DNA from: a filamentous cyanobacterium CCP5
GTDB taxonomy: Bacteria; Cyanobacteriota; Cyanobacteriia; Phormidesmidales; Phormidesmidaceae
Length of the DNA stretch: 33,688 nucleotides
Assembly: GCA_003017785.1 (NCBI GenBank)
Contig: PYEQ01000004.1
Coordinates: 1 to 33,688 of the forward strand
Direction of reading: 5' to 3'
Below, one piece after another: positions 11,945 to 30,821 of this stretch; position 1 is the first letter of the stretch; every line of letters starts with the position of its first letter. The notes below the pieces were generated by a model. That model was not told where the DNA came from, ran no database searches, and saw only the letters and a program-made list of their open reading frames with translations. Both the position numbers and the translations under genes were made by a program.

Positions 11945-13192
11945 GTGCGAGTGCTAACAACACGTCACACCGATGGACAGCTTTACCCAGATTCTAACCG
12001 GTCTGCTGGAGACAGCAGGCCGTTTCACAAACCCCAACGGCAGTTTGTGCTGACGTTGATGAGCACGATATTTGTGGTGTGCGGGAAGGTTAACTACACC
12101 AACCTGAGCCGCTATAGTGAGCTCTCTGAGCGGACTTACCGGCGTCACTTCAATCACGGGATTGGCTGTGAGGGGCTTAATCAAGCCCTAGTTCAATCCC
12201 TTCGACACTCAGAGTCAGTTCAAATTGGGGTCGTGGACTGCACCTTTCTGGAGAAAAGTGGGCGTTCCACCTACGGATTGGACTGGTTCTACAACGGCCA
12301 GACTCAACGCCCTGAGAAAGGGTTAGAGCTCTCGGTCGTGGCCATTGTGGACTTGGAGCAGAACACGGGCTACACGCTCTCAGCCCAGCAAACGGAAGCC
12401 GGATTGAGTTCTCCAGTTGACAGTCCGATCCAGGGTAATCGCATCGAGTTTTATCTGGGGCATCTAGCCTACTGCGTCACCTTCTTTCCCGAGTGGATTT
12501 GTTATATCGTTGCTGACGGCTACTACAGCAAGTACAAGTGGGTTACCGGAGTGGTGCAATTGGGCTTTGAGGCGATTGGCAAGTTGCGCTGTGATGCCGA
12601 CCTCAAGTTTCTCTATGACGGTCCCTACTGCGGTCGAGGGACGCCTCGGCGCTATGACGGCAAGGTGGACTTGACGGACCACCGCCGCTTTGAGGTGGTC
12701 GAGCGCTTAGCCGACGGCGTCTATCTGTATACCGCCGTGGTGTGGTCGGTGAGCCTCAAGCGTAAGGTTCGACTGGCTTATCTGCTCAAAGAGCATCAAG
12801 GCCGCAGAAGCTATGTCGTCTTGTTCTCGACAGATACCGAGATTGACCCGCTGCTGCTGTACCGGTGCTACACCGCCCGGTTTCAAATCGAATTTATCTT
12901 TCGCGATGCGCGTCAGTATACCGGGCTGGCTGATTGCCAAGCCCGCTCTCCGGAGGCTATCGACAGCCATGTCAACGCCAGTCTGATGGCCCTGAATCTG
13001 GCCAAAGCAGTTCTACAAGAAGACGCTTCACAGGCGGAAGCGCTGCGCTTTTCCCTGGCCTCTTTCAAACGACTCGCTCTCAACCAGCATCTTTTAGACC
13101 TATTTATTGACCTGTTTGAGTTGGAGCCGACTTTGATTAAATCCCACGCCAACTACCGAAAGCTGCTTGATTACGGGGCTATAGCCGCCTAA
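11945..13192 (+). CDS. DDE transposase of the IS4-like element, N-terminus possibly frameshifted
   Basis: Up to 415 residues from a GTG at 11945. An RNase H-like DDE core is visible: first aspartate in GVVDCTFLEKSG, second in YIVADGYYSK, and the glutamate in YRCYTARFQIEFIFRDARQYTGL. The last is a Y-x2-R-x3-E-type signature of the IS4 group, although its final K is R here. Coding from about PQRQFVLTLMSTIF onward is coherent. The N-terminal 35 residues in this frame look unnatural, whereas the next frame encodes a plausible N-terminus from the ATG at 11973 (MDSFTQILTGLLETAGRF) and stops at 12053. The two frames would join if one base were restored near 12037-12040. The gene may thus be a recent pseudogene, or use an internal start. 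Confidence 0.8.
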   Translation: MRVLTTRHTDGQLYPDSNRSAGDSRPFHKPQRQFVLTLMSTIFVVCGKVNYTNLSRYSELSERTYRRHFNHGIGCEGLNQALVQSLRHSESVQIGVVDCTFLEKSGRSTYGLDWFYNGQTQRPEKGLELSVVAIVDLEQNTGYTLSAQQTEAGLSSPVDSPIQGNRIEFYLGHLAYCVTFFPEWICYIVADGYYSKYKWVTGVVQLGFEAIGKLRCDADLKFLYDGPYCGRGTPRRYDGKVDLTDHRRFEVVERLADGVYLYTAVVWSVSLKRKVRLAYLLKEHQGRRSYVVLFSTDTEIDPLLLYRCYTARFQIEFIFRDARQYTGLADCQARSPEAIDSHVNASLMALNLAKAVLQEDASQAEALRFSLASFKRLALNQHLLDLFIDLFELEPTLIKSHANYRKLLDYGAIAA

Positions 13193-13534: not shown

Positions 13535-14509
13535 CTACGAATGAATGAAACTCAATATAGTGTTTATATAATAAGAGCTAAGCTTTGGCCTTGCGAGGTG
13601 AGAGTCGAAGTAATTTCGAGCTGCTAATGCGATTTTTTCTCTTTCCTCGTCATGATGTATATAATATTCGCAAAGATCGACCAGGTCAGACATATCCTCC
13701 TGACAGTATATTATTTCCTTACCTGCAGTCAGGGGAACAGGCAGTTGCGCATGATGAGGATATGCAACAACACAAGCACCGACTGCCAGATAATCAATCA
13801 AACGAAAACAAAGAGGACCTACCCCAGGCAAATCAATGCAGACTTTTGAACGAGCTGTTTCGAATAGAGAATTTTTATAGCTTACACGCCTTATACCACC
13901 ATGATATGGAAATTTTGCCTGACTAGAAAGTATCCCCACCGCTCTCTCTCTGATTGTCTTTGAGAAGCGGCCTCCAAATCGTCCATATGCATCATAAAGA
14001 AATTTTTGCTTCCCACGTAGCTGCCTCACCTTTTCAATGTGAAGATAAATATTAGAATAGTTAGGAATGAATCCACCAGGCACGACATTGTTTGCTGAAT
14101 AACCTTTCGATGAGTACTGCATCTTGAAGTAGACTTTCACCTGAGAAGCACATTGCTCGTTAATTTCAAGCCAGTCAGACGCATCAACGGCGACAGGATA
14201 AATTTCTCCGCCGACTTCTACTTCAAAATAGATTGCATTCTCAAAAACTGGCATAGACTTGAAGCCCACCCAAAAGGATCGCCGAAATTCACTCAGAAGA
14301 GGAAAGAGCCATTTGCGAGTTAAAGGCCATGGATAATAGTATGGCCAATAGATACGAATTTGCTTTGGAGCAATATCAAAGGCTAAGGCAGTCTCTTTAG
14401 CCAAAAGTCTATTATTAAGAAGTTTTAGTCGAGCTTCGGTAACATGATCATTCGCGCTAAGCCAACCAGCCTTTAATTTAAGAGAACACTTTTCTATGAG
14501 ATTTTCCAT
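13535..14509 (-). CDS. putative glycosyltransferase (CgeB/GT1-like fold), last gene of the EPS cluster
   Basis: 324 residues, no signal peptide or membrane helix. The C-terminal third has the donor-domain pattern of GT-B enzymes of the CgeB/Glyco_trans_1_2 type: RSKVCIDLPGVGPLCFRLIDYLAVGACVVAYPHHAQLPVPL, followed by a closing helix (EREKIALAARNYFDSHLA). The first half (IRIYWPYYYPWPLTRKW, residues about 50-70) is not recognised. It starts 18 bases after the propeller gene ends, so the two are probably co-transcribed. Its stop lies about 10 bases from the transposon junction, but the C-terminus looks natural. Sugar specificity is unknown. Confidence 0.65.
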   Translation of the reverse strand: MENLIEKCSLKLKAGWLSANDHVTEARLKLLNNRLLAKETALAFDIAPKQIRIYWPYYYPWPLTRKWLFPLLSEFRRSFWVGFKSMPVFENAIYFEVEVGGEIYPVAVDASDWLEINEQCASQVKVYFKMQYSSKGYSANNVVPGGFIPNYSNIYLHIEKVRQLRGKQKFLYDAYGRFGGRFSKTIRERAVGILSSQAKFPYHGGIRRVSYKNSLFETARSKVCIDLPGVGPLCFRLIDYLAVGACVVAYPHHAQLPVPLTAGKEIIYCQEDMSDLVDLCEYYIHHDEEREKIALAARNYFDSHLARPKLSSYYINTILSFIHS

Positions 14510-14527: not shown

Positions 14528-16789
14528 TTAGAGTTTCGATATATAGATTTCTTTATGCGGCTTTGTATGTTTTATTGACAAAGGAATTGTATGTCTACGG
14601 CAGACAAAATTCATGACATTGTCAATGCCTCCTGCAATAGAACCGAACTTATCTTGTGAAAATGACTCCAGGCTAGCCGTGTAAAAACCAGATCCACCAA
14701 GGCCGACAACTATACTCCTACCATTTGGGCGAAAGGTGATAGTGCTTCCTCGTAGCATCGGTAGCCCATTGTTTTGCTGGTACCAAGTTTCGCCAGCATC
14801 TTGACTGAACCACACTCCTGTGGCCCAGCTTTCATCATGATAGGGAAAATCATTAGTGATAATCGCCAGAAAGTTTGGGTTTTGTGGGTGAATTGCCAGA
14901 TCGCCAATTCTAGAAGCGACCATACGATCATCCCATACAAGCGACCAACCATTTTTCAGTCGATTGTAACGCCATAAGCCGTAGTCATCCCAGTAGGACT
15001 GATCTTGAGCAGCGTAAAGAATATTAGGATCAGCAGTTGAAATTTCCAACTCAACCATTACAGCATTCTTGAGGCCGCCTATTGGTCTAAAGTCGATACC
15101 ATTTTGCGTATAATAAATGCCATTATCTGTAGCTATGTAAAAGCTGCTCTCACTGCCTGGCACAGGCTCAATATCTCCAACGGCATTGCCATAGAATCCT
15201 ACCTGTAGTTGAGTCCAGTTAGGGCTTTCTGTCTGAGTTGCATTGTCACTATGCCAAAGCTGTTGACCGATGACTACCCATAGTAAATCAGGATTATTCC
15301 TGTCAGCATAAACATGAGTTGCCTCAGAAGGACTAATCGGCGACTCTAGCGACGTCCAACTGTGTCCAGAATCTTGGCTACGCGCAATTAAATCAGTGGT
15401 ATCAGCAGTCTGCCCAAAAACTCCAAACATCCAGCCTTGGGAAAAGGCAACATCGCGTCCTCCGCTGTAAGGAGATAATCCCGGATTGTTTACACGCCAG
15501 TTAGAGCCATCATCCCAAGACTGAATCATTTTAGCCCCGTCCATGCCTTGCAGAATAACGTGGCTTGAATCATCAGGGTTCCACTCAATATTTGTGGCAA
15601 CTAAACCACTGAATCCGTTTCCTTGCCATCCTTGGGCAGTACGTTTAGCTGTCAACACACTCCATTCTTCACCCCCATCCACACTACGATAGAGAGCATT
15701 GTCTGTACCTGCATAGACAGTGTCCGGAGAGGTAGGACTTATTTCCAAACACCAAGGGTTGATGCCTCCTGGATAGGGCTTATCTCGGATGTCAATCTGA
15801 TGGATGCTATAAAATTTGTGTTCCCAAGTCTTTCCTCCATCAGTGCTCTTATACACTCCAGGCTGATGCCTAAAGTTTCTATTACCTGCATATAACGTTT
15901 CGCCGCTTTGAGCTACTACTACAGACCAAAACTCGCTCTCGACAGTAGGAATACCTTGGTCGAGAAGATGCCAATGATTACCGCCATCCGTAGTTTTATA
16001 AATACCGAAGTTTTCTACTGTAATCCAAGCAACTTGTGAATCATCAGGGTGCACTGCTAAAGAAGATACCAAGATATTTCCATTTTCATCCTCAGGCAGT
16101 CCACGATTCAGCTTTGCCCAGGTTGCACCATCATCAACGCTGTAGAAGAATCCATGCTCCCACACCACGGCATAAATTTCGCAATCAGAGCCTCCAGCGT
16201 AACTAGCTGCCATAATGTTGCCATCTTCAGCAATCTGAGATTCTAAAGACCATCGCTCACCATGATCTTTACTAATCCAAACGCTTCCGTAGTTAAGCAC
16301 CTCCTGCGCCGATTTAAGCTGCCTATGATCACCACCAAAGGCAAGAATTGAATCACTGTCTGGATCGAACAATAATTTTTCAACTGGCGCGGTATATTTA
16401 CCAGAATCAACTTCTGGAAAACCTAAACGTTTCACAGTCCAGGTATTGCCCCCATCAGTGCTAATGTGCGGGCCGCTTAGAGAACCAGCCCAAACAATAT
16501 CTGGATTTTCAGGATGCCAGGTAAAATCAGAAATTTCATAATTTAACCAGCCAGAAGTGCCTGACCAACTATCACCTCGATCCGAAGAGAAATGTGTGCC
16601 CAGAATATCTCCACCTACCAAAACATAATTAGGTCTATGGGGATTGACAGCAATACTATCAATTCGGCCACCAGAGCCAGGTTCGCCTAAAGGTTGCCAG
16701 AATAATGAAGCTTGAGAGTGAAATAGACCTGACGATAGCGCAGGGCCCATGACTATTCCAAAGAAAAAAAGAATTACGAAGAGTCTCAT
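14528..16789 (-). CDS. secreted Asp-box (BNR) beta-propeller protein
   Basis: 753 residues with an N-terminal signal peptide (about 1-20, hydrophobic LFVILFFFGIVMG). Ten Asp-box motifs (S/T-x-D-x-G-x-x-W) are at residues 68, 110, 173, 217, 266, 315, 369, 424, 471 and 662, at roughly 45-residue spacing apart from gaps after 471 and 117. Length and repeat number suggest two seven-bladed propellers, as in GH74 xyloglucanases or VPS10/sortilin ectodomains. The interleaved VNPHRPNYVLVGG and IHPQNPNFLAII motifs fit that family. A catalytic assignment is not possible. Inside an EPS cluster it may cut, modify or bind the exported polymer. A TTGAAT-18 bp-GATAAT pair lies upstream (16836-16865). The last 40 residues are basic and outside the propeller. 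Confidence 0.85.
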   Translation of the reverse strand: MRLFVILFFFGIVMGPALSSGLFHSQASLFWQPLGEPGSGGRIDSIAVNPHRPNYVLVGGDILGTHFSSDRGDSWSGTSGWLNYEISDFTWHPENPDIVWAGSLSGPHISTDGGNTWTVKRLGFPEVDSGKYTAPVEKLLFDPDSDSILAFGGDHRQLKSAQEVLNYGSVWISKDHGERWSLESQIAEDGNIMAASYAGGSDCEIYAVVWEHGFFYSVDDGATWAKLNRGLPEDENGNILVSSLAVHPDDSQVAWITVENFGIYKTTDGGNHWHLLDQGIPTVESEFWSVVVAQSGETLYAGNRNFRHQPGVYKSTDGGKTWEHKFYSIHQIDIRDKPYPGGINPWCLEISPTSPDTVYAGTDNALYRSVDGGEEWSVLTAKRTAQGWQGNGFSGLVATNIEWNPDDSSHVILQGMDGAKMIQSWDDGSNWRVNNPGLSPYSGGRDVAFSQGWMFGVFGQTADTTDLIARSQDSGHSWTSLESPISPSEATHVYADRNNPDLLWVVIGQQLWHSDNATQTESPNWTQLQVGFYGNAVGDIEPVPGSESSFYIATDNGIYYTQNGIDFRPIGGLKNAVMVELEISTADPNILYAAQDQSYWDDYGLWRYNRLKNGWSLVWDDRMVASRIGDLAIHPQNPNFLAIITNDFPYHDESWATGVWFSQDAGETWYQQNNGLPMLRGSTITFRPNGRSIVVGLGGSGFYTASLESFSQDKFGSIAGGIDNVMNFVCRRHTIPLSIKHTKPHKEIYISKL

Positions 16790-16920: not shown

Positions 16921-18018
16921 TCAACAGAATGAGTCAAGATTATCAACGTCATGGGGGATTAGGTAGTCAGCAGAAATCTGAGCAAGAGATTCCCAAACTT
17001 TTAATTGGAGATTGGACTTAAAGTCAACATACCATTCCGAAACTTCCATGGATAGCCGTTCAGTTGACTCCATATCCAAATCTAATAAAAATGCCTTAGC
17101 ATCTTTCCAAGAGGAAAATGTTGGCATAGGATGACTACCAAGCAAACTCGTGTAATAATCATAAGGTTGCCAAGCATGACTCTTCATTATAATTGGGATA
17201 GCTCGAGCCTCAAGAACCTCGAACAAGCGATAGGTATCAATATTAAGATTTCCAAGAGAGCACGGAACAAATATAGATTGACTTAAAACCTTCCAATATT
17301 CTTCACCTGATAAGCTCCGCTCATCCATAAATCCTTGATATTCAAAAACAAAATTTGGTTCAATATTTGATAGACACCTCAACATCAACTTCCTATCAGT
17401 CTTAAAGCTATTTCCGCAGAAACTCCATTTATACTTTCGGTTGGCCATAGAAGGAGAGTCGAAAGTTCTACTAAGCGCAAATTTGTCCGTATAGCCCAGT
17501 GGGAAATAGTGAATTTTATCTCTAGATAAGACAGGAAAATATTGACGTTTCATGAAATCAATCTTCCGAAATATATGGGTAAAGCGCAGATAAAACTCAT
17601 ACGCAAGCCATTTAGCCCCAGAATACTGCCGATGACAGCTACTATACCGATTAGGCACGAAGAAAGATTTAACAAAATCTACTAAAAACGGGGCTGCACC
17701 TCCCGTTGGCCTGAAAAAATTTCTAAAAACTAAAACGCATCGATCCAAATTATATATAGATAAATCATGATCATAGAGTTCATCCATTACATGAATTAGG
17801 CCAAAACTATAGCCTGCATCATTTAAATAGGAAAACAGTTCGCAATTCAGGCCTCTAATCCCTCTCGTATATTCCTCATCTCCCTGCACCACAAATACAG
17901 GGAAAGTATTTGATTTAAGACAACCATCGAATTGCCTAATTGCATGCTGAAAAACCTCGGAAACCCATACGCGACTTTCAGTTTTATGAGGCTTTAGCTC
18001 TATTAAGTCAATATGCAT
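16921..18018 (-). CDS. exostosin-like putative glycosyltransferase
   Basis: 365 residues, soluble. The C-terminal half carries FVPCSLGNLNIDTYRLFEVLEARAIPIIM, which matches the exostosin/GT47-type pattern (F-x-P-x-G...D-T-x-R-x-F-E-x-L...G-x-I-P-V-I). It is preceded by a KWSFCGNSFKTDRKLMLR segment resembling the donor-site loop of that family. The N-terminal half (FPVFVVQGDEEYT, LVFRNFFRP) would be the acceptor domain. The gene is AT-rich like its neighbours. Gaps of 131 and 150 bases separate it from the adjacent genes on the same strand. It probably adds one sugar of the repeat unit; which one cannot be told. Confidence 0.65.
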   Translation of the reverse strand: MHIDLIELKPHKTESRVWVSEVFQHAIRQFDGCLKSNTFPVFVVQGDEEYTRGIRGLNCELFSYLNDAGYSFGLIHVMDELYDHDLSIYNLDRCVLVFRNFFRPTGGAAPFLVDFVKSFFVPNRYSSCHRQYSGAKWLAYEFYLRFTHIFRKIDFMKRQYFPVLSRDKIHYFPLGYTDKFALSRTFDSPSMANRKYKWSFCGNSFKTDRKLMLRCLSNIEPNFVFEYQGFMDERSLSGEEYWKVLSQSIFVPCSLGNLNIDTYRLFEVLEARAIPIIMKSHAWQPYDYYTSLLGSHPMPTFSSWKDAKAFLLDLDMESTERLSMEVSEWYVDFKSNLQLKVWESLAQISADYLIPHDVDNLDSFC

Positions 18019-18168: not shown

Positions 18169-19080
18169 TCAAGAATTGTTTATAAGAGCATTTATAACTC
18201 TATTTTTTATACGTCCGCCAATTTTCAACTTGAAAATGTATTGAATATTCCGCACAAACATCTTCATACGTAATGAGATAGAGTCCTTCGCAGACATCTG
18301 ATGCAGAAATATGAATCTTCTTTTTGACATTTGTATCGCATAGTAACCGTTGGAATTCTTGCATTTAGGGGCACTTATATCAGGAAAAGCATCTTGCCAC
18401 TCTTTCCACCAGAATTTGAGTGCATAGGGAGGAGTTTCCCGAAGAATTCTCTTTAGATTCTTGTCATCTGATGACATTCCATCACTACGATACGCCAGCG
18501 AGTGGGCTTGTCCCTTTAGTTCAGAATAAAGGTGGGGTGCAAGCGCCCATTTACCTCTAAACTCCGGATCAGATTCGAATAACTTTTTGAATAAACCATC
18601 AAGCCAAAAATAGTTATCCGCCTTATCTCTATCCCTCCAATAAACATCGCATGCATTTTTCCATCTACTTATCATCAAAGAATGCTTCTCAGATGCAATC
18701 AACCAGATGCTTGGGCCATTCATTCCGTTCATCCCAGCACCATGACCGTGATACATCCACAAGCCAGCAGGTTTTACCGCGGATTCTATCCACGGATTCA
18801 ATGGTTGCATACATAGCATAGTAGCATCAGCCCAAACTCCTCCGTAGTTTTTGAGTAAGCTCAGACGGATAATATCAGCTTTATGCTGAGGTCCTATATT
18901 TTTAGTCTTATCAAAAATATAACCTATGTCATGAACATATTTATGCAAATTCTCTAGGGTAATATACTCAACATTCCAGTCCGGATTATTGATTTCCCAA
19001 GACCTTGCAACCTGTTTAACTAACCAAGGTGCATTATTCCATCCTTGCAACCACAGTAGCCATATCGTTTTTGTTAGCAT
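18169..19080 (-). CDS. Caps_synth/GT32-like capsular polysaccharide glycosyltransferase (probably frameshifted)
   Basis: 303 residues in the main frame. The N-terminus reads TIWLLWLQGWNNAPWLVKQ, the opening beta strand of GT32/Caps_synth enzymes. The nucleotide-sugar metal site is in HKADIIRLSLLKNYGGVWADAT (D-x-D-like W-A-D-A). Further family marks are NPWIESA, a long aromatic mid-region and a C-terminal helical part. The listed ATG at 19080 starts only four codons before this core, whereas family members normally have 40-60 residues before it. A matching N-terminal segment exists in another frame (19068-19216) and would join directly if one A were missing from an A5 run at 19068-19072. Confidence 0.75.
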   Translation of the reverse strand: MLTKTIWLLWLQGWNNAPWLVKQVARSWEINNPDWNVEYITLENLHKYVHDIGYIFDKTKNIGPQHKADIIRLSLLKNYGGVWADATMLCMQPLNPWIESAVKPAGLWMYHGHGAGMNGMNGPSIWLIASEKHSLMISRWKNACDVYWRDRDKADNYFWLDGLFKKLFESDPEFRGKWALAPHLYSELKGQAHSLAYRSDGMSSDDKNLKRILRETPPYALKFWWKEWQDAFPDISAPKCKNSNGYYAIQMSKRRFIFLHQMSAKDSISLRMKMFVRNIQYIFKLKIGGRIKNRVINALINNS

Positions 19081-19225: not shown

Positions 19226-20230
19226 TCAGAGACTGATTACTATTGGCGCTTTTTTAGGTATATTTAAAAATGATTTTAGATGAATAAGAGCACGATACTT
19301 TTGATAAAGACTAAAGCCGAGCAGCTTTGAAAGTCGCGTACTCATAATGAGCCTTTTGTACTCAAGAGTATCGACTATCTCTGGCATATGCATTGCAGCT
19401 TTTTGTTGAAAGAAGTGAACCTCTTCATGACCATTCTCAAATTCATTCAAGGCAATCCACGAGATATGCATAAAAGCCGCAGCGAAGCTCTTTGATTTCA
19501 ATCGGCTATCATATGAAGATGCATTAGAAAATACAGATTCTAAAATTTGAGTAAAGCTTATTTCCATATCATTAAGCCTGTTTTTCATCCCTTCAGGTGT
19601 TGATCGAGATAGGCTCGATGGGTTGGAACGATAGTATGTAAGCACTTCCCTAATCACCTTAAACGGATATTTTTCTGAAATTCGTATCCAGAAATCCCAG
19701 TCTTCACATGCAAATGGAAACTTTGAGAATAATCCTACTTTCTCGATGCAGCTCCTTCGAATCATCGGAACGCTTCCACAGGCTATGATGTTTCCTTGCA
19801 CAAGTCTTTCCCAAACATCACCTTCATTACTGAATCGCCAATTTTTTTTCAGAATAATATCATCTGTGCTAAGTTCGGCAACCCAGGTGTAAACCAAGCC
19901 TATATCAGGATTTTTATCCATAACCTTGACTTGCTTCTCAAGCTTTCGAGGATCCCATAAATCATCTGAATCAAGGAAAGCTATATATTTGCCAACAGAA
20001 TCATTAATGCCAGTATTACGTGCTGCAGACTGTCCCTGGTTAGATTGCGAGATGAAGCGAACCCTTGTATCGATAATAGTTTTAGCCCAACTCTCAATAC
20101 CGTCTTTACTACCATCATTCACAACAATAACTTCGAAATCTCGGAAAGTCTGACCTAGAACACTGTCAAGCGTTCTAGGCAAAAACTCCATGGCATTATA
20201 GGCAGGAATAATCACTGAGACTTTAGGCAT
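19226..20230 (-). CDS. GT2-family glycosyltransferase
   Basis: 334 residues, GT-A fold. VSVIIPAYNAMEFL (4-17) opens the nucleotide-binding domain, followed by VVNDGSKDG, the SQSNQGQSAARNTG segment, and the metal-binding DXD in FLDSDDLWDPRKLEKQV. The acceptor-side ED-W motif is CEDWDFWIRI. The C-terminal 120 residues are helical and basic, without a membrane helix, so the enzyme is probably peripheral and works on a lipid-linked sugar. It is clearly a paralogue of the GT2 encoded at 23093-24118. The product enters the EPS repeat unit; the sugar is unknown. Confidence 0.9.
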   Translation of the reverse strand: MPKVSVIIPAYNAMEFLPRTLDSVLGQTFRDFEVIVVNDGSKDGIESWAKTIIDTRVRFISQSNQGQSAARNTGINDSVGKYIAFLDSDDLWDPRKLEKQVKVMDKNPDIGLVYTWVAELSTDDIILKKNWRFSNEGDVWERLVQGNIIACGSVPMIRRSCIEKVGLFSKFPFACEDWDFWIRISEKYPFKVIREVLTYYRSNPSSLSRSTPEGMKNRLNDMEISFTQILESVFSNASSYDSRLKSKSFAAAFMHISWIALNEFENGHEEVHFFQQKAAMHMPEIVDTLEYKRLIMSTRLSKLLGFSLYQKYRALIHLKSFLNIPKKAPIVISL

Positions 20231-20340: not shown

Positions 20341-21270
20341 CTATAACAAATGAGCATCGAGCATGTCTAGCAGCTTCGAAGATTTGTAAGGATCTATTTT
20401 CCTGGCAAAGAAATATTTTCCGTTAGTTATTTCCTCAAAGTCTGAATCCTCCAGAATCCTTGGGCTTCCATCTCGTGTGTGCTCATAATCATCGAATATT
20501 TTATTGTCATTTGAAAGGTTAAATTTGCGGCTATTGACTAAAATTGTTTGGACAATTGCTTCTTCAGGACACCATGTTTCGCAAAAGTAATCAAAAATTT
20601 CTTTCTTTTCAAGAAGAAAGCTGTTCAAGTAATCCACGCATGCTCTTGATAAAACATGTCTATGGTTACCACCATAACAAATAAATTCATCTGTAAAAGG
20701 AGGATGTTGAGACTCTTGCCAAAGTGAGACGCCGAAGCTTGGCCGACTTTTTACAGCATAAGGAAAGCGATCTAGTAGACTCATTTTGTTGATCATTCTT
20801 GAAGGAAGCATTGTCCAGGCTGGCAAGTCACTGATCTTATGATAGTAATACCTTTCATACCCCTCTTGAATGCTCCATTTGCTTTGACCTGATAAAATAT
20901 TGAAGTAGTCAATAAAGCCTTCTTTCTGAGTAGAAGAAAGGTAGATTTCTAGCTTGGCTGTAGACTGGACAGGATAACATTGTCCGGAAATATAAACTAA
21001 CCAGTCAAAGTCGTATCCTTTATCTATAAGCCATTCTATTGCATCAAAATAGGGTTGAATGGCTGATATACCTCCTCTTATCACTGGGCGTGTGCCCTTC
21101 AATAAATAAGTATTTGAGAAATCCTTCAAAAGCGAAGTATTAAAGCGACTGTTAGTAAAGTCATAGGCTATGAGAATCAAAGCGCTAGGATTTCCAGCCC
21201 TAATACTTCTAATTAACCGGCAAACCTGATGAGGATCTCTGTGAGCTTGTATCAAGTAAGCAACTATCAT
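20341..21270 (-). CDS. GT14-like (Core-2/I-branching family) glycosyltransferase
   Basis: 309 residues, no membrane anchor. Starts MIVAYLIQAHRDPHQVCRLI, the usual opening of bacterial Core-2/I-branching-type enzymes. WLVYISGQCYPVQS matches the family Y-x-S-G-x-D-x-P segment. The C-terminal CETWCPEEAIVQTILVNS matches the E-motif (P-x-E-x-x-x-Q-T), which holds the likely catalytic glutamate. Family members are mostly beta-1,6-GlcNAc or xylose transferases; the substrate here is unknown. It sits between the flippase gene and a GT2 gene on the same strand. Confidence 0.8.
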   Translation of the reverse strand: MIVAYLIQAHRDPHQVCRLIRSIRAGNPSALILIAYDFTNSRFNTSLLKDFSNTYLLKGTRPVIRGGISAIQPYFDAIEWLIDKGYDFDWLVYISGQCYPVQSTAKLEIYLSSTQKEGFIDYFNILSGQSKWSIQEGYERYYYHKISDLPAWTMLPSRMINKMSLLDRFPYAVKSRPSFGVSLWQESQHPPFTDEFICYGGNHRHVLSRACVDYLNSFLLEKKEIFDYFCETWCPEEAIVQTILVNSRKFNLSNDNKIFDDYEHTRDGSPRILEDSDFEEITNGKYFFARKIDPYKSSKLLDMLDAHLL

Positions 21271-21514: not shown

Positions 21515-22936
21515 TTAGCTCCTCGCTAGCTTCTTAGAATTAAAGGTAAGCAATAACTCTTTCACCAGTTCTCTCATATCTGCGTTAAATACAAACAAGA
21601 GTCCATAGCAAAGCAGTAAAATCACGAAGCTTACTGGGGGAGGCAATAAAACGCTGACGATAAGAGATGGCACAGCAGTCACCAATATCAAGATTGCATT
21701 CCAATAATTCGGATACCCATACAAAGCTGAAAACGCTCGATGGGATATATAAAAACTTGGCAACGCAACCATTTCAGCAAATACATAGCCCCACAATCCA
21801 AAGGAAGGAATTAAGAGCCAACAACTCAACCAAAGCAAGCCTATGTAGGTTAGATTTTGGAGCGTTACTATGTTATTTCTGCCTACTGCATGTAGCGTTG
21901 CTAAATGCAAATCAAAGACAGCAATCACTGATGCTGTGAAAGCAATGGGAGGAAAAATTCTGGTACTTTGAAGCCATTCTGCGCCAAACAAAAGGGGTAT
22001 TAACCAAGGCGAAATGCAAGCAAATGTCGCACACACTGTTATCATCAGCAAAGCCATATAGCTCATACCACGGTTGATTGTGCGTTGGACTGCAGAAGGA
22101 CTCCCCATAAGTTTAGACATAACGCTGATTGACATACCACGGATAACGTTTCTTAGCAAAGAAAGTTGCTCCAACATACGTAGCGTTACTCCTGCAATTC
22201 CTGCCGCTTCAACGCCTGCTAACGGCGTAATAAAGAACGGGATGGTCAGGGTACGAAGAGTTTGAACCCAGCTTGCAAAGAAAAAGGTAATGCCGTAAGT
22301 CATCATCCTTTTCAAAAACGTCCACTTCCACTTAAACGTCAGACGAATCGGGCGCAAAGCATAGGCTAAACTAGCAGATGCCAAAAACTGAAGAAGTATT
22401 CCTGCAACGGGTCCCCAATAGCTGCCAGAGAGTAAAACAATCGGAACGGATAATAGATAATTGGCTATCTGTGATGTGCCTTCTACCAGACTGACTTGGT
22501 CAAACTTCAGCTCACTAGATAGCATTCCTACGGACACTCCTCCGACCATATTCAGCCAGATAGCTGGTACCAGCCAGCGCAAGATGCTAGCAACCTCGGG
22601 CACTCCTGTCCACCAAGCAAATAAGGGAGTTGCTGCAAATATCAGTCCACACAATAAAAGGCCGACTGTGTTGTAAAACGCCATCAACTGTTCAGCCTCT
22701 TCTTCCTCTAAGTCAGGTTGTCGGACAATATACATGTTTAGTCCCATTTGTCCTGTCCAAGCTAGGAAGTAGAAAATCCCTAAGGAGCTAGTAACAAGTC
22801 CATATTTTTCAGGTCCTAAAGAGCGAGCAATGACTAGCACACTCACAATTGATAAACCTGATGATAGAAGCTGACGGAGCGTAAGAAAAAGGCCTCCCCT
22901 CAGAACTTGATTTTTGATGTTTCCGATTTCAGACAT
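21515..22936 (-). CDS. Wzx-type oligosaccharide flippase
   Basis: 473 residues, strongly hydrophobic, with about 12-14 membrane helices spread over the whole length. The N-terminus (NQVLRGGLFLTLRQLLSSGLSIVSVLVIARSLGPEKYGL) has the polysaccharide-transport MOP-superfamily signature R-x-L-G-P-x-x-Y-G. It should move undecaprenyl-linked repeat units of the EPS from the cytosolic to the periplasmic face. It lies in the same transcript direction as the polymerase and co-polymerase, completing the core of a Wzx/Wzy pathway. A 244-base AT-rich gap separates it from the GT14-like gene downstream; I see no gene in that gap. Confidence 0.9.
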   Translation of the reverse strand: MSEIGNIKNQVLRGGLFLTLRQLLSSGLSIVSVLVIARSLGPEKYGLVTSSLGIFYFLAWTGQMGLNMYIVRQPDLEEEEAEQLMAFYNTVGLLLCGLIFAATPLFAWWTGVPEVASILRWLVPAIWLNMVGGVSVGMLSSELKFDQVSLVEGTSQIANYLLSVPIVLLSGSYWGPVAGILLQFLASASLAYALRPIRLTFKWKWTFLKRMMTYGITFFFASWVQTLRTLTIPFFITPLAGVEAAGIAGVTLRMLEQLSLLRNVIRGMSISVMSKLMGSPSAVQRTINRGMSYMALLMITVCATFACISPWLIPLLFGAEWLQSTRIFPPIAFTASVIAVFDLHLATLHAVGRNNIVTLQNLTYIGLLWLSCWLLIPSFGLWGYVFAEMVALPSFYISHRAFSALYGYPNYWNAILILVTAVPSLIVSVLLPPPVSFVILLLCYGLLFVFNADMRELVKELLLTFNSKKLARS

Positions 22937-23092: not shown

Positions 23093-24118
23093 TCAGAACT
23101 TTTGAAAACTTATATGGCCGACGTTAAAGAGCTTACTTATTACATCTTTTAGCCTATAAGTAAATTGGCGGCATTTGTTGTAAGCTTGCAAGCCAAATAA
23201 GTTCACAAAAAACAAAGCTGTCTTGAATCTAAAGTATTCCTGCGTATACCTGATGCCTGGATAATAGCTAACAGCTTCTTCCTCAAGACCTATGGCAGTC
23301 TCACAGGCGTCATTCGGACTTTGCAACGCTTTCCAAGCTACCCGAAGTTTGGCAAAACCAAAACTCTTATTTTTATAGAACCGTAGAGATTCTGGTGCAG
23401 ACTCAAATGCTTTCTCAAGAACTATTTGAAAGCTCTCTTCCATTGCGCGCCAATTACTAGAGAGATTATTTGAATGATTCCGATAGTAAACTAAAGGCTC
23501 TCTAACTAAACCAAAGTTATAGTGAGCAGCAATCCTAAGCCACATATCCCAATCTTCAGAACAAGAAAAGGGTAAAGCCTCATCAAACATGCCCACTTTA
23601 TCAAAGCACTCTCGCCTAACAAGAGCTACACTTCCACACTCTACAACGTTGTGAGTTGTGAGTTTAATCCAGACGTCTCCATGTACGTGATTTTTTCGAA
23701 ATTTGCCTTGGAACACTCCATTTTCGTCAATTAGCGCAACCCATGTATAGACCAATCCGACTTCTGGATATTCATCTAAGATGCCCACCTGCTTTTCTAA
23801 TTTTCTGGGTCGCCAAATATCATCAGCATCAATAAATGCGATGTATGTTCCTTTCGCGTTAGCTAAACCTGTATTTCGGGCATTCGCCAGTCCCTGATTA
23901 CTTTGCGAAATCAACCTAATTCTGCTGTCTGATAGTTGTTTTGCCCAGTCCTTTATATTGTCAGAACTGCCGTCATCTACGATGATGATTTCAAAATCTT
24001 GGTAAGTCTGATTTAAAATGCTAGAGATAGTTTCTGGCAAATATTCCATTGCATTGTAAGCAGGGACTAAGACCGAAACTTTTGGGTCAGCAGTCTGAGC
24101 CGTTGACAAAGAATTCAT
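23093..24118 (-). CDS. GT2-family glycosyltransferase
   Basis: 341 residues, GT-A fold: VSVLVPAYNAMEYLPETI, IIVDDGSSDN, SQSNQGLANARNTG, the DXD in FIDADDIWRPRKLEKQV, and CSEDWDMWLRIAAHYNF. It aligns from end to end with the GT2 at 19226-20230. The two share the order and spacing of all motifs, including RKLEKQV and the VYTWVA segment, so one arose by duplication or both came from a close common source. An AGGAA nine bases before the ATG supports the start. It adds a sugar to the EPS repeat unit. Confidence 0.9.
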   Translation of the reverse strand: MNSLSTAQTADPKVSVLVPAYNAMEYLPETISSILNQTYQDFEIIIVDDGSSDNIKDWAKQLSDSRIRLISQSNQGLANARNTGLANAKGTYIAFIDADDIWRPRKLEKQVGILDEYPEVGLVYTWVALIDENGVFQGKFRKNHVHGDVWIKLTTHNVVECGSVALVRRECFDKVGMFDEALPFSCSEDWDMWLRIAAHYNFGLVREPLVYYRNHSNNLSSNWRAMEESFQIVLEKAFESAPESLRFYKNKSFGFAKLRVAWKALQSPNDACETAIGLEEEAVSYYPGIRYTQEYFRFKTALFFVNLFGLQAYNKCRQFTYRLKDVISKLFNVGHISFQKF

Positions 24119-24158: not shown

Positions 24159-25613
24159 TTATGACTGAACATTAGACTGGTATCTTCGATGAGGGGTGAA
24201 TGGCTTTTCAGTCTCTTGAGCATTGACCCAGTTGAAAGAAACCATTGGAACTAGTGCCCACCAGTAGAAGAAAAACGTTGTATGTGTCCAAATATTTTCA
24301 GTGACCATTCCCATTAGCGTGGCAAGAAATATCGCTATAAGGCATAAGCAGAATTTCTTTCTGACACGGCTTATGCTTGAAGTATATTGATTAACTAAAT
24401 AAGCTAATTGCGAAAAATAAAATAGCAAGAAGAATAAAGCACCAATTAATCCGTTCTCAACCAGAACTCGAACATAATCGTTGTGAGCATAATTCCTTAG
24501 AGGACCTATAAACCTCGCCAATCCTAATCCGTAACCAAAGAATGGTGCCTGTTTCCATTCTTCAATTAGGAAATTCCATTGTGCAAGACGCCAATTAAAA
24601 CTATTGCCATCACTCCAAGACAGTAAAATTGCTCGATTTAAAGTCATATCGGGGTTCAGTAGAGGCGTTTCAGATATAGAAGCTAGCCTTTCCCTGCCAA
24701 ACTCCGAGCTCGCAAATAAAGCCACAAACAAAAGAAGAACAAACAGTATTCCAATCAGACTCTTGACTTTAAATTCAGGTATTATCAAAACTAGTAGTAG
24801 AGTAGCCAGCATTGGCAGCGAGAACAATGCTTTAGTGCTAACCAAAAAGAAGATTTCGACTGCCAGAAACGAACCCCACACCATGGTATTTTTTGATTGC
24901 CCCATTTTCCAGTAAGTCAAGCCGATAAATAACACCAAGAAGGATGCAAAAGTGTTTGGGTGGCCAAGTGTGCCATTAATGCGGGAGGCTGTTTCAAATA
25001 GAGGGCTAGAGGTAGACTGAAGAAATTCTGGCAGGGCGTTTACAGGTAAGATCAACTGTAATGTGGCAGCAAACAAAGGAATTATTAACGCACAGAATAA
25101 TACATTTATTACCTGTTCAGGATGAATTCTATCTTTGAACTGACTAGAAATTAAGTAGACTACAAACCATGAAAAGATTCTCATCCACTCACGAATACTA
25201 TCGTATAAATATTCTTTCCCTAGTTCTAAGCCTCCTGTAGCTGTAAGCAGTGGCCAAATAGCCTGAGATAGGACCCAAGCCAAAAAAATCCATCCAAATC
25301 TATCAAAATGGATTTTTTTCTTTCCAATAAACAGAAAGAAAATATAGATTATAGCCAGAATATCTAGTCCAATTGCAAAAACTGAAGGTATATGAAATTC
25401 AGAAAACACGTCTAGAAAACTTCGGAAAACCAGTAGGCTTAAAATGGTGACTTCAAATTGCTTGAAAAGAGAATAAAGCAACAATCCCAAAATCGAAATG
25501 GAAACCAATGCTATATAAGTTTTGTGCGCTCCGAGAGTCATGGGCATTAGACATACAGCCAACGCCAAGGTTATCAAAGCAGGAGGAAAAAATCGCTTTT
25601 TATAGATTTCCAT
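24159..25613 (-). CDS. Wzy/WaaL-like O-antigen polymerase/ligase
   Basis: 484 residues with about 11-12 membrane helices and one larger periplasmic loop (about residues 310-380). That loop carries the O-antigen ligase/polymerase signature GYGLGLARF...NYAHNDYVRVLVENGLIGALFF. A shorter family motif is INGTLGHPNTFASFLVL. It is expected to polymerise undecaprenyl-linked repeat units in the periplasm. Placed next to flippase, export and co-polymerase genes it is better read as Wzy (polymerase) than as a lipid A ligase, although sequence alone does not separate these. It ends 41 bases before the start of the adjacent GT2 gene. Confidence 0.85.
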   Translation of the reverse strand: MEIYKKRFFPPALITLALAVCLMPMTLGAHKTYIALVSISILGLLLYSLFKQFEVTILSLLVFRSFLDVFSEFHIPSVFAIGLDILAIIYIFFLFIGKKKIHFDRFGWIFLAWVLSQAIWPLLTATGGLELGKEYLYDSIREWMRIFSWFVVYLISSQFKDRIHPEQVINVLFCALIIPLFAATLQLILPVNALPEFLQSTSSPLFETASRINGTLGHPNTFASFLVLFIGLTYWKMGQSKNTMVWGSFLAVEIFFLVSTKALFSLPMLATLLLVLIIPEFKVKSLIGILFVLLLFVALFASSEFGRERLASISETPLLNPDMTLNRAILLSWSDGNSFNWRLAQWNFLIEEWKQAPFFGYGLGLARFIGPLRNYAHNDYVRVLVENGLIGALFFLLFYFSQLAYLVNQYTSSISRVRKKFCLCLIAIFLATLMGMVTENIWTHTTFFFYWWALVPMVSFNWVNAQETEKPFTPHRRYQSNVQS

Positions 25614-25646: not shown

Positions 25647-26693
25647 CTAGTCGAATAAAAAGCCAACTGGAAATAGGATACTGGACAATATATCCAAAAA
25701 ACCTCTCACGCGACTGCGACCTGACTGAGAAACAATAATTGCATCTCCATTTGCCAAAGGAATTGAATTCTCGCCAAGACTATAAATATAGTTCTCGACA
25801 GTTCCATCTGGAGCAGTACGAAGTAGAACTATATTTTGAGCAGCGCCATCCAAGGTCAATCCACCTGCTGCTGCAACTGCCGAACTAACATCTGAGTTAG
25901 GGCTAATCTCCACAATTCCGGGTCGTTGTACTTCTCCACCTACATTAACTGTGATGGCATTGGGGGCGAGTGATGATGATAGTAAAGCTTGCTGTTCTAT
26001 TCCTGTGAGACCATTAGACACTGGAACAAGAATTTCGTCTCCATCATAGATAGGAATATCTGCAGACAGGTCACCTTCTCTGATAGACTGCCATAAATTA
26101 ACTCTTACCTCTTCGATGGGATAGGGATCGTTTGAACGTAGGTTGAGGCTGCTTACACCACGATTAGAGTAAGCATTACGTCGAATTAGAATACTTTGAA
26201 TATCAGCTTGCGGGGTCACTCCTCCCGCTAAAGTCAAAGCCTCGCTTAAGGTACTGGCTCCATGAAGAGATGCCGCCGGAGTATCCAAGACTAAGGGGCC
26301 TGGCCTATTCACGGCACCCGTTACGCTCACACGGGTAGGACTTAAACTGTCAATGGATAAACTAACTTGGGGGCGTCGCACATATGGACCGAGTTTGGCT
26401 GTGATTAGTTCAGTTGCTTCACTGGGGGTTAAATGCCAAACGTTCACGTAACCAGCTAGAGGTACCTGTATTCCCCCGTCAGCCATGACAGTCTGTTCAC
26501 CTGAGATCTCAGGAAAACCAACCACCGTAAGACGTAATCTATCACCAGGTTTTAGGGGAGCACCGTCTCTGAGTAAATCCTGATCAATTGGCAACTGTTG
26601 TGCTCGAGCAACAATTAAAGTATCTGGTACAGAATAAGTGATGGAGGCAACCGCTGCCAAAAAAATTGCGCCAATAAAAAGCTTGGAGTTCAT
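25647..26693 (-). CDS. Wza-like polysaccharide export (OPX) protein with SLBB domains
   Basis: 348 residues. Signal peptide at about 1-22 (LFIGAIFLAAVASITYSV); no lipobox cysteine. The Poly_export domain follows (about 45-118: LKPGDRLRLTVVGFPEISGEQTVMADGGIQVPLAG). Then come a first SLBB domain (about 119-215: VSVTGAVNRPGPLVL, LAGGVTPQADIQSILIRR) and a second (about 245-325: VNVGGEVQRPGIVEI, AAGGLTLDGAAQNIVLLRT). The C-terminus is hydrophobic (FLDILSSILFPVGFLFD). It should form the periplasmic/outer-membrane conduit for EPS together with the Wzz-like co-polymerase, whose gene lies 70 bases upstream. Confidence 0.9.
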   Translation of the reverse strand: MNSKLFIGAIFLAAVASITYSVPDTLIVARAQQLPIDQDLLRDGAPLKPGDRLRLTVVGFPEISGEQTVMADGGIQVPLAGYVNVWHLTPSEATELITAKLGPYVRRPQVSLSIDSLSPTRVSVTGAVNRPGPLVLDTPAASLHGASTLSEALTLAGGVTPQADIQSILIRRNAYSNRGVSSLNLRSNDPYPIEEVRVNLWQSIREGDLSADIPIYDGDEILVPVSNGLTGIEQQALLSSSLAPNAITVNVGGEVQRPGIVEISPNSDVSSAVAAAGGLTLDGAAQNIVLLRTAPDGTVENYIYSLGENSIPLANGDAIIVSQSGRSRVRGFLDILSSILFPVGFLFD

Positions 26694-26763: not shown

Positions 26764-28188
26764 TCACGTAACAGTAGTTTCAGAGGCTTGATGGGTCTTT
26801 TGACCTTGAAGGGTTCTTGCTTCTTCCTCAGAGGAATCAGAAGAATATTCTAGGCCTTCCAACAGAATCAACTCAAACGCAGCCAAAAAGATGCCAGCTA
26901 CCACGCCTAAAATCAACACCATAAAAAGATTGGGTTCACTTGGATTGCTAGGAATCCTAGCGTTACCAAGAGGTCTTATATTACTCACCAACTGGGCCTC
27001 AGCAATTCGCGCTTCTTCCAAATTTCGTCTGAGATTTTGTAGGGCTTCTTCAGCCGCCTGTCTTTGCCGAATTAATGAAGCCAGCGGACGAGAAAGGACG
27101 GGAATCTCAGTAAGGCGAGTATCAAGAGCTGCTCTTTCTGTCTGAACAGTAGTCAGTCGTTTGCTGAGAGAGCGATATGTGATTCCATCGGTAATATATT
27201 GAGCTATCAAATCCTGGCTAAGAGGTTGCAAAGCGAGAGAACTCGCAGAGCTTTCTTGTCCCCTAGCTATTTCTCTAATCTGACTTTGATATAGCTGTTG
27301 CAATCCTTGCCGTTGCTCTAAAAGAGCCTGAAGTTCGGGATGTTGCTCGCCCAGACGAGAACCACTCTCTACGATTTGACTTTCTAGCTCAGAAAGCTGA
27401 TTCCTTAAACCATTGACGGTCTGGTCTTGCCCGACAAGAACAGAGCTATAAGCACTTTCTACAGCATCAACTCCCGTCACTTGCCTTAGTAATCTAACTC
27501 TTTCCTGCATTTCTTGAAGTTGAGCAGCCAATTGCCGCTCTTCATTTTCTAATTGGCTTAAGTTATCTACTAGGGTACTAACTTGATCCTCAAGAGACAC
27601 TATCCCATTTACTTGTCTAAACCTACTCTCAGCTGCCTCAGCATAAGTCAATTCAGCCTCTTTTTTAGGAAGTTGCTCCTCAAGAAATTGGCGGACTAAA
27701 GAAGCTTCTTCGCGAATTGCTTCACCATTAACTTCAGCAGTACTCTCCACAACGGCATCCAAAACGTTTGCCGCAACTTGAGGATCACCATAGGAAAAGC
27801 TCAGCTCCAAGATATTAGTGGCCGGAATAATCCGGACTTCGACCTGCTCCTCAAGTTCATCAACCGTCAAAGGGAGCTCAGGATATCTCCCCATTAACTT
27901 TTGACGTGCTCTATCAAGCACCGCCTGCGAGGCAATAAGTTCAGATTGAGTAGCTAATGGGTCTGAAGTCGAGCCAGGCCCTTCAAGTTTTGTAAGTGCA
28001 CGTCCTAAATCAGATACAGTTTCCTCTCCTTCCTCTAGCATTATTCGCGCCGACGACTTATAGACAGGTGGAGTGACAAGAAGATATAAGATGGAGCCCA
28101 AAATAGTCGCCGAAAAGGTCAGACCCAGAACCACCCTATGTCGTTTTAGTGCAGATATTGCAGTAGCAATGAATGAAGAACTTCTCAT
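26764..28188 (-). CDS. Wzz/GumC-like polysaccharide co-polymerase without kinase domain
   Basis: 474 residues. One membrane helix near the N-terminus (about 18-38, VVLGLTFSATILGSILYLLV). A large periplasmic coiled-coil domain (about 150-400, rich in E, Q, L and R heptads). A second helix near 425-446 is preceded by the proline-rich ARIPSNPSEPN typical of polysaccharide co-polymerases. It ends 28 residues later in a short acidic, Ser-rich cytosolic tail. There is no Walker A/B and no tyrosine-rich tail, so the BY-kinase half found in Wzc is absent. It should control chain length and couple the polymerase to the OPX channel. Confidence 0.9.
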   Translation of the reverse strand: MRSSSFIATAISALKRHRVVLGLTFSATILGSILYLLVTPPVYKSSARIMLEEGEETVSDLGRALTKLEGPGSTSDPLATQSELIASQAVLDRARQKLMGRYPELPLTVDELEEQVEVRIIPATNILELSFSYGDPQVAANVLDAVVESTAEVNGEAIREEASLVRQFLEEQLPKKEAELTYAEAAESRFRQVNGIVSLEDQVSTLVDNLSQLENEERQLAAQLQEMQERVRLLRQVTGVDAVESAYSSVLVGQDQTVNGLRNQLSELESQIVESGSRLGEQHPELQALLEQRQGLQQLYQSQIREIARGQESSASSLALQPLSQDLIAQYITDGITYRSLSKRLTTVQTERAALDTRLTEIPVLSRPLASLIRQRQAAEEALQNLRRNLEEARIAEAQLVSNIRPLGNARIPSNPSEPNLFMVLILGVVAGIFLAAFELILLEGLEYSSDSSEEEARTLQGQKTHQASETTVT

Positions 28189-28358: not shown

Positions 28359-29522
28359 TCAAGGAACATATTGTTCAGAGGAAGATAATCCGCTCGAAAA
28401 GTTCAAGGCTTGGCTGTAGGTGCGGAGAGTCTCATTCGTGATCTTTTCCCAGCTATGGTGGACTTTAGCGTACTCTTGAGCCTTCTTAGCCATTAAATTC
28501 ATCTGGACAGAATTTTCTATAGCCCATCTTAGAGACTTACTAGAATCAGTTAGATTCCCTGCCTTAAATAATAGACCTCGGTTGTCGCCTAATAGTTTCT
28601 GATGTGGTTCGATATCGGATGCAACGACAGGAATACCCTCCATCATAGCTTCTAGCATTGAAAGCGGCATACCCTCTAGATTTGATGGTAGGACAAATAA
28701 GCCAGAACCCCTAACTATCTCCGCCAAGAATGCACCTTTCATCTCGCCAGTGAAAACAATATTAGGATCATTTTTGGCAACAGAGAAAAGACTCTCTGTG
28801 TAGGCATTTGTATCGCTATTACCTCCGACTATCGCTAGCTTCCATCCTTCGGCTTGTATATTCTGAAAGCTCCTGATCAATAGATCGGGGCATTTTTCCG
28901 GAACCAAACGCCCCAGGAATAGTACATATTTTTTAGGAGTCAGTCCTAAAGAATGCACATGAGCAAAGCTTTCGTCTGAGTCAACATAATCTGCCGGTGC
29001 ATTGGGGATATAAACGGTTTCGCGACCGTATTTATCTTTGAAATAATCTTTGAGGTTTTCAGAAACCACAATAATCTGGTCTGCGAATTGGGCAGCAGCT
29101 TTTTCACCTGCCCGTATAACGGCACTTGAAAAACGTCCCCACTTATCCCTTTGCCAGTCAATACCATGACAAGTTACTACGACCTTAGTTGAGGCAGATT
29201 TTAGCTTAGGTAGCCAGGAAAATATAGAAGGTCCTAAAGCGTGAAAATGAACGATATCATATTTGGAACCGGCAAACATAGTGCTCATTGCAGAGTTCAC
29301 AAAGGCGTCCATTCTACTGTTATGGAAACTTGGCTGAGAGATGACATTCACGCCTTTATATTCATATTGGCGCCCCAAAGATGAGTCGATGTATGAGGAT
29401 CGAGCGAAACAGTCTATGACATGTCCCTTTTCAGCCATCTTGGGATATAAAGCAGCGCAGTGATGCTCTATTCCTCCTTGGCGCGGGGGCAGACCTTTAG
29501 AACCAATCACGGCGATTTTCAT
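28359..29522 (-). CDS. GT4-family glycosyltransferase (rhamnosyltransferase-like)
   Basis: 387 residues, GT-B fold. The N-terminus MKIAVIGSKGLPPRQGGIEH is the form found on GT4 enzymes often annotated as rhamnosyltransferases (from memory). The donor domain has YVLFLGRLVPEKCPDLLI and the E-x7-E region LPSNLEGMPLSMLEAMMEGIPVVASD. AGGAG eight bases before the ATG supports the start. It begins 63 bases after the upstream GT4 and is probably co-transcribed. It is presumably involved in early assembly of the lipid-linked repeat unit. Confidence 0.9.
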   Translation of the reverse strand: MKIAVIGSKGLPPRQGGIEHHCAALYPKMAEKGHVIDCFARSSYIDSSLGRQYEYKGVNVISQPSFHNSRMDAFVNSAMSTMFAGSKYDIVHFHALGPSIFSWLPKLKSASTKVVVTCHGIDWQRDKWGRFSSAVIRAGEKAAAQFADQIIVVSENLKDYFKDKYGRETVYIPNAPADYVDSDESFAHVHSLGLTPKKYVLFLGRLVPEKCPDLLIRSFQNIQAEGWKLAIVGGNSDTNAYTESLFSVAKNDPNIVFTGEMKGAFLAEIVRGSGLFVLPSNLEGMPLSMLEAMMEGIPVVASDIEPHQKLLGDNRGLLFKAGNLTDSSKSLRWAIENSVQMNLMAKKAQEYAKVHHSWEKITNETLRTYSQALNFSSGLSSSEQYVP

Positions 29523-29585: not shown

Positions 29586-30821
29586 CTAACTAGAAGCAAC
29601 CTGGAATGGGTGGTGCTTTTTCTCCCATCGAGACCACATGGAATCGAATATTTCTTGAATAACTACTTCGGCTTTATATGGGGCAGCAGATCTTAAACAT
29701 GCGGACGGAGGAAACTTCTCTGGGTATTTGAGCACTTGCTTGAGGGCATTCGCTACACTGATGGGAGTTTGCTCTTGAGAGACTACTCCGCTATCGACAT
29801 GGAGCAAGTTTTTAACTTGCTCACAATGGGTAGTCACTATGGGAACACCACTGGCAAGAGATTCCAAGACTACAAGGGGTAAGCCTTCATACACGCTGGT
29901 TAGAGCAAATACATCAACTATCTGCTGGAGCTGCGCTAGGGAAGGCCTGGGTAGGGCACCCAAAAGGGTGATCTGGTGGCAGAGATTAAGAGCCTTAATC
30001 TCTGTTTTAATTGCACCTTCTAGCTCACCTGCTCCTACTAGCAGAAGGTGAACGTTTGGATCGGATAGCGCTGCGATGGAACGAATAAGAAGCAACGGAT
30101 TTTTCTGAGGATGTAGCCGCCCAGCAAATAGTACTAGCTTAATTTCTGAACTTAAGCCTAAACTCGATGTTAACTTCAATTTTTGATGAGCTTTTTCTGA
30201 AGGAGATAGCGGATAAAACAATTCATCGTCTATGGCATTTTTTACGCTTTCTATTCGCTGAGCGAGAGCAGGATATTTTGATTGATAAAATTGAGTTGTC
30301 TTGGCGTTGCATGATAACACTTGATTAAACTGACTCAATAGGGAACGTTCGAGGGCAAAATATGCAGCTGGAAACTTTTGCCAGAGAATAGCATCCCCCC
30401 CTCTGCCTTTGCCCAGAACCTGCTCCTGTATATCGTTATGGACAAATAAAGTCTTGTCACCAGCCCATCCAAGAGTGCTAAGGGTTGGCTCAAGACGATG
30501 GAAGTGCATGAAGTCTGAAGATAACTGGCGGCCAAACATTGCTGCTGTGTACTTAATCGAAGTGGGAATGAGCTTTCGGACATTGTCGTCTAAGCATTTG
30601 AACAGCGGGAAGAAATCAATTTCTCGTTCAAAGATTTCAGCTCTTTGCCAACGTCCAACAGACCATTCTGAAGAACCTGCAGTCCCTACAAGACGCAGAT
30701 GGAAGTGCTTCGGTGAATATTTAATAAAAGCATCAATTACAGACTGAATGCCGCCGATAGTGCTATGCCAAGGGTCATATTGATAGAAGATAGTCAGGAC
30801 AGGCTTACGCATGAATTCCAT
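29586..30821 (-). CDS. GT4-family glycosyltransferase, first gene of the EPS cluster
   Basis: 411 residues, GT-B fold. GGIQSVIDAFIKY (24-36) is the N-domain loop. The donor domain contains LVLFAGRLHPQKNPLLLIRSI, LLLVGAGELEG and FALTSVYEGLPLVVLESLASGVPIVTT (the E-x7-E signature). Two ATGs are possible, 30821 and 30812. The second has GGA at good distance and would sit about ten bases after a -10-like TATAAT, so it may be the true start. It is the promoter-proximal gene of the co-directional cluster. Specificity unknown. Confidence 0.88.
   Translation of the reverse strand: MEFMRKPVLTIFYQYDPWHSTIGGIQSVIDAFIKYSPKHFHLRLVGTAGSSEWSVGRWQRAEIFEREIDFFPLFKCLDDNVRKLIPTSIKYTAAMFGRQLSSDFMHFHRLEPTLSTLGWAGDKTLFVHNDIQEQVLGKGRGGDAILWQKFPAAYFALERSLLSQFNQVLSCNAKTTQFYQSKYPALAQRIESVKNAIDDELFYPLSPSEKAHQKLKLTSSLGLSSEIKLVLFAGRLHPQKNPLLLIRSIAALSDPNVHLLLVGAGELEGAIKTEIKALNLCHQITLLGALPRPSLAQLQQIVDVFALTSVYEGLPLVVLESLASGVPIVTTHCEQVKNLLHVDSGVVSQEQTPISVANALKQVLKYPEKFPPSACLRSAAPYKAEVVIQEIFDSMWSRWEKKHHPFQVASS

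Follow-up and report, generated by a model that had tools for sequence, protein, structure and literature searches.

Which role may a protein built of Asp-box repeats play among genes which assemble and export a polysaccharide? The question is raised by a gene of the filamentous cyanobacterium CCP5. It is found on the minus strand at positions 14528..16789 of the window, by which we mean the whole stretch of 33,688 nucleotides analysed (contig PYEQ01000004.1, assembly GCA_003017785.1), and it is a single open frame of 753 amino acids. Its product is a GH74-like double Asp-box propeller of the 6P2K type, placed in an EPS island. We give a somewhat better than even chance to its being a secreted or periplasmic GH74-like endo-glycosidase, which would trim or release the polymer of its own cluster; we infer catalysis, substrate and location from the features described below.

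The gene is the twelfth in a run of 13 genes of the Wzx/Wzy type, all on the minus strand, which goes from 30821 to 13535. The run starts with two GT4 genes (29586..30821 and 28359..29522), followed by a Wzz/PCP chain-length protein (26764..28188; Wzz 3e-9), a Wza/OPX export protein (25647..26693; Poly_export and SLBB), a Wzy polymerase (24159..25613; Wzy_C 2.5e-13), a GT2 (23093..24118), a Wzx flippase (21515..22936; Polysacc_synt_3 2e-35), a branch-type (Core-2/I) glycosyltransferase (20341..21270), another GT2 (19226..20230) and a Caps_synth glycosyltransferase (18169..19080; Pfam 5e-40). The propeller gene has a GT47/RXYLT1-C-like glycosyltransferase (16921..18018; Pfam RXYLT1_C 2e-7) immediately before it, and 18 bp downstream there is a Glyco_trans_1_2 protein (13535..14509; Pfam 1.2e-7). 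The 13 genes have a uniform GC3, 0.33–0.42, with 0.365 in the propeller gene; in the genes of the low-coordinate side (suf genes, sufR, mscS and a transposase) it is 0.62–0.77. In composition the propeller gene agrees with the EPS genes, and it probably came in with them. Its EPS context, pointed out in a preliminary description of this DNA, is thus borne out. A SufR_cyano match marks the genome as cyanobacterial. Between the low-coordinate genes and the run there are a tRNA-Thr (11148-11220) and two transposase-like frames (11315-11857 and 11945-13192). With its AT-rich genes and these elements at its border, the run resembles an acquired island. That it was inserted at the tRNA is no more than a suggestion, because a search of the rest of the window gave no tRNA-derived repeat of at least 12 bases.

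The GT47-like gene is rare in relatives, with two weak matches in 58, and it has no conserved syntenic cluster in them. It is of interest because a study of a different cyanobacterial EPS cluster connected exostosin-like glycosyltransferases with decoration of the xyloglucan type (PMC4971617), a link which does not by itself identify the substrate.

The sequence of the protein is dominated by its repeats. The preliminary description had counted ten Asp-boxes: the strict pattern [ST]xDxGxx[WF] occurs exactly 10 times, while 2000 shuffled versions of the protein contain 0.066 on average and never more than 2. It had also proposed a signal peptide, and the start of the protein is indeed signal-peptide-like. 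The hydrophobic residues 1–22 (16724..16789, minus strand), MRLFVILFFFGIVMGPALSSG, read as a signal peptide or a membrane helix, both by their composition and by a helix predicted at residues 2–22; no lipobox was seen on inspection of this N-terminus. The Pfam match to Sortilin-Vps10 (E=5e-25) is a generic Asp-box signal. Another Pfam match, to the T6SS-immunity protein Tli3, covers 55 residues only and was judged to be a cross-match between propellers. A PADLOC run gave no match.

The preliminary description had suggested counting the blades by structure prediction. An AlphaFold2 model based on an alignment of 23 sequences (pLDDT 75.9, pTM 0.77) predicts a double propeller with 7+7 blades, according to our own count from its DSSP strands. 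Propeller 1 occupies approximately residues 31–395 (15605..16699, minus strand), with one Asp-box in each of its seven blades, at residues 68, 110, 173, 217, 266, 315 and 369. Propeller 2, approximately residues 396–707 (14669..15604, minus strand), has Asp-boxes in three of seven blades, at residues 424, 471 and 662. Past the last blade there is a C-terminal tail, residues 714–753 (14531..14650, minus strand), without a confident fold and with pLDDT below 50; besides these last 40 residues, confidence is low around residues 436–466, in blade 9. A second run with 14 sequences was poorer (pLDDT 68.7) and left blades 10–11 unresolved; the strands around Asp61 and Asp417, two residues discussed below, were placed as in the first run.

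When this model was compared with the PDB by Foldseek, the top match was 6P2K (TM 0.70, E=4.5e-28), followed by GH74 xyloglucanases, all with E<1e-20. A sequence search alone also gives 6P2K as the first among solved structures; its PDB title is "Crystal structure of AFV00434, an ancestral GH74 enzyme". The protein had been described as having a GH74/VPS10-like architecture. The first half of this name agrees with the model and with Foldseek, the second half does not. Sortilin/Vps10 resembles the window protein in its Asp-box repeats, as detected by the Pfam match, but it has a single 10-bladed propeller and a 10CC module; the window protein has a 7+7 fold and only three Cys in its whole length, too few for a 10CC module.

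The catalytic pair of GH74, which we take to be established, is formed by D70 and D480 in Xgh74A. We have compared a profile of the new family with a profile of 16 cyanobacterial GH74 proteins, from which the window protein was excluded. They align over residues 26–708 with a probability of 100% (E=1e-56): Asp61 (codon 16607..16609, minus strand) falls on the Asp of RTDxGG and Asp417 (codon 15539..15541, minus strand) on the Asp of GxADxxGF. They are the equivalents of D70 and D480. An alternative profile comparison was discarded, as the query was present in both alignments. The numbering of Xgh74A comes from the 2cn2 and 2cn3 sequences (RADIGG -> RAAIGG), in which the Asp of the first motif is the residue changed to Ala; naming it D70 gives a residue offset of 27, so that the Asp of SAVGDLVGF in the second propeller becomes D480. 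The window protein thus resembles the GH74 xyloglucanases (Xgh74A 2cn2, PoGH74 6mgj and OXG-RCBH 1sqj) in fold and in the positions of its catalytic Asp candidates.

Both residues are invariant in a 14-member alignment of the family, with members from several phyla; in the alignment of 23 sequences only three columns do not vary, D417 being one of them. They are also the only two cases in the protein of an Asp at position -7 of an Asp-box, which is found in 46 of 546 boxes generally. In the model each of them is predicted in a loop which joins strands 2 and 3, D61 in blade 1 and D417 in blade 8, with which the two propellers begin. A structural survey places the catalytic residues of every known Asp-box glycosidase in this loop 2-3, at the top face (PMC2716378). 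The surroundings of the two residues are GGDILG and QGMDGAKM: the Asp alone is kept from the RTDxGG and GxADxxGF signatures. In 6P2K and in the Persicobacter relative the second Asp is one residue nearer to the Asp-box than D417, so that its equivalence in the 6P2K-type relatives requires a one-residue gap, being off by one in the Asp-box register. According to profile alignment and position, each propeller contributes one Asp of a candidate GH74-type pair, located in its first blade. On the presence of a conserved acidic pair the preliminary description had staked its enzyme beforehand, and D61 and D417 stand at the positions of the GH74 catalytic residues.

The relatives of this protein are all distant. 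A search of 59 relatives and 386 cyanobacterial genomes gave no close orthologue. The protein alone gave no match in a scan of the genome collection; when the query was an alignment of the window protein with the Persicobacter relative and part of 6P2K, the collection of 84,980 species yielded 58 loci from many phyla. A phage search found no match to the protein. The closest plasmid matches (Mesorhizobium, Microvirga and Rhodococcus) are mostly other Asp-box proteins without EPS neighbours and were set aside. Identity to any relative is only 20–26%. In a maximum-likelihood tree the protein is outside the GH74 clade (split support 100/100), next to Persicobacter (L112) and two Planctomycetota (L122 and L135) with support 90/81 and long branches. 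Its own branch has a length of 2.4 changes per column, which makes this placement tentative.

Scores against profiles agree with a position outside GH74: 81 bits, compared with approximately 970–1085 for the GH74 members themselves. The score is higher, 156 bits, against group C, a set of Asp-box proteins which are not GH74, probably inflated by the many Asp-boxes of that group. NCBIfam NF045728 (F510_1955 glycosylhydrolase) gives 150.3 bits, below its curated cut-off of 175. Membership in canonical GH74 was rejected: the protein is outside the clade, scores far lower and has neither the RTDxGG nor the GxADxxGF signature. In GH33 sialidases the propeller is 6-bladed and the Asp-boxes are preceded by a [FY]RIP motif; the window protein has no [FYW]RIP motif and 7+7 blades instead of 6, and this family was also discarded.

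The 6P2K-type group remains, with a colinear full-length alignment in which both Asp are kept. 6P2K (AFV00434) is the best solved match by sequence and by fold, with 7+7 blades, D61 and, with one gap, D417; it differs in that its full-length identity to the window protein is only about 17%. We know of no measured activity for 6P2K. Its authors reportedly called it a distant relative of GH74, and we take it to be the ancestral GH74 of Simiduia agarivorans. A review names a GH74 of that species as ancestral (PMC10317168).

A difference is also apparent in the genomic setting. The relatives of 6P2K are found in polysaccharide-use loci, some of them in tandem, while the window protein is in an EPS assembly cluster. 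In marine Bacteroidota, loci L118, L133 and L142 have neighbouring 6P2K-type genes with SDMEG ... ADNG motifs, some in tandem, and the pooled neighbourhoods of such copies contain SusC/SusD, sulfatase, GH2, GH43 and GH97 genes. A contig of Lentisphaerae (L115:6559-19464) has four adjacent dual-propeller genes: one has true GH74 signatures and three have a second motif MDEGLL.

The preliminary description considered such a protein an unusual partner for Wzx/Wzy genes. This is not supported: canonical GH74 genes recur in the EPS clusters of cyanobacteria. We have taken as canonical the cyanobacterial proteins with a profile score above 600 bits and looked for relatives of the twelve other EPS genes of the window in up to 20 kb around each locus. 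They were found in 14 of 16 loci, with at least two such genes in 13 of them. When stretches were chosen arbitrarily in such genomes, 1 of 20 had them, and around other Asp-box proteins (group C) it was 0 of 13 loci. Fisher's test, which ignores shared ancestry, gives 4e-7 against the random windows and 2e-6 against the other Asp-box loci; without the five loci which had seeded the profile there are still 9 of 11, with a value of 2.5e-5 under the same proviso. In nine of these neighbourhoods, with 85 proteins, there are 22 GT2, 14 of the GT1 group, 6 Wzx, 5 Wzy and 4 Wza. A motif search found the first catalytic motif in 14 of the 16 canonical proteins and the second one also in 14. The canonical loci of this comparison are L039-L041, L049, L051 and L083-L093. 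A search of the open-access literature gave no paper reporting GH74 in EPS clusters of cyanobacteria; this absence is weak evidence, since subscription papers are mostly outside such a search. The proteins of these clusters share with the window protein the fold, the Asp positions and the setting. As the association with EPS is general for cyanobacterial GH74, we interpret the window gene as a divergent occupant of the same niche.

How such a protein could work can be outlined. The two seven-bladed propellers would form a cleft between them, in which Asp61 and Asp417, each from the first blade of its propeller, may serve as acid and base of an endo-glycosidase with an inverting mechanism. The substrate would be the polymer assembled by the neighbouring glycosyltransferases with Wzx and Wzy and exported via Wzz and Wza, which it might trim, release or clear. 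To our knowledge BcsZ, PslG, AlgL and PgaB are not Asp-box propellers; the likeness is in the proposed role, that of a cutter in the operon which makes its substrate. Enzymes which cut EPS within EPS operons are a described trend, with BcsZ, PslG, AlgL and PgaB as examples (PMC5933820). An enzyme is supported by the fold, the homology, the conserved acid pair, the membership in the EPS island and the recurrence of GH74 in cyanobacterial EPS clusters. It is weakened by the identity of only 20–26%, the very long branch, the signatures worn down to the Asp alone and the gap needed for the second Asp in the 6P2K-type relatives. As no close orthologue was found, conservation for function can be judged from distant relatives and not for this exact protein.

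The main rival, which we consider rather unlikely, is a non-catalytic protein of the matrix which binds EPS, either keeping the polymer on the cell surface after export or cross-linking it. Direct binding of a propeller to the EPS of its own producer has been documented: the propellers of the secreted proteins Bap1 and RbmC bind VPS in Vibrio cholerae (PMC10102183). The eroded signature around both Asp and the high divergence of the sequence are also what a lectin-like descendant of an enzyme could have. However D61 and D417 are invariant while nearly everything else changes, and the cyanobacterial GH74 proteins of similar clusters keep their catalytic motifs. Bap1 and RbmC differ as well in having one 8-bladed propeller with a beta-prism, while the window protein has 7+7 blades, the Asp pair and no beta-prism or other adhesive domain. 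A glycosidase might instead act on a foreign polysaccharide, from plants or algae, feeding outside the cell and merely located in the EPS island. The SusC/SusD, sulfatase, GH2, GH43 and GH97 neighbours in marine Bacteroidota would fit this use, as would the plant xyloglucan cut by characterised GH74 enzymes; we find it very improbable, in a 13-gene assembly run with no uptake gene or other hydrolase and with cyanobacterial GH74-type genes so strongly tied to EPS clusters.

We give equally little credence to a structural or assembly scaffold, which could hold the Wza-Wzz export complex or help to fold a surface protein. Many Asp-box propellers are not enzymes: those of the Ycf48 type assist the assembly of photosystem II. 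The raw score is also higher against group C than against GH74, but it is this group C score that is probably inflated; its proteins are absent from glycosyltransferase clusters in all 13 loci and Foldseek gives dual-propeller GH74 enzymes first, not single propellers of the Ycf48 type.

The EPS of cyanobacteria are abundant and of commercial interest, and the enzymes which set chain length or release the polymer are little known: in a phylum-wide survey of the last steps of EPS assembly and export the words "hydrolase" and "lyase" are absent (PMC4594306). If double propellers of the GH74 type are standard in EPS clusters, each of them is a candidate enzyme matched to the polymer made by the adjacent genes. 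For the 6P2K-type side branch of GH74, an enzyme trimming its own polymer would be the first role. A further, tentative possibility is that the window protein belongs to a glycosidase family separate from GH74 but similar to it in double-propeller fold and acid pair, and that the member of this family linked to EPS cuts cyanobacterial EPS: Wzx/Wzy clusters would then have recruited a GH74-like trimming enzyme a second time, independently of the true GH74 enzymes. If this were true, such hydrolases would be a regular but overlooked part of EPS assembly in cyanobacteria.
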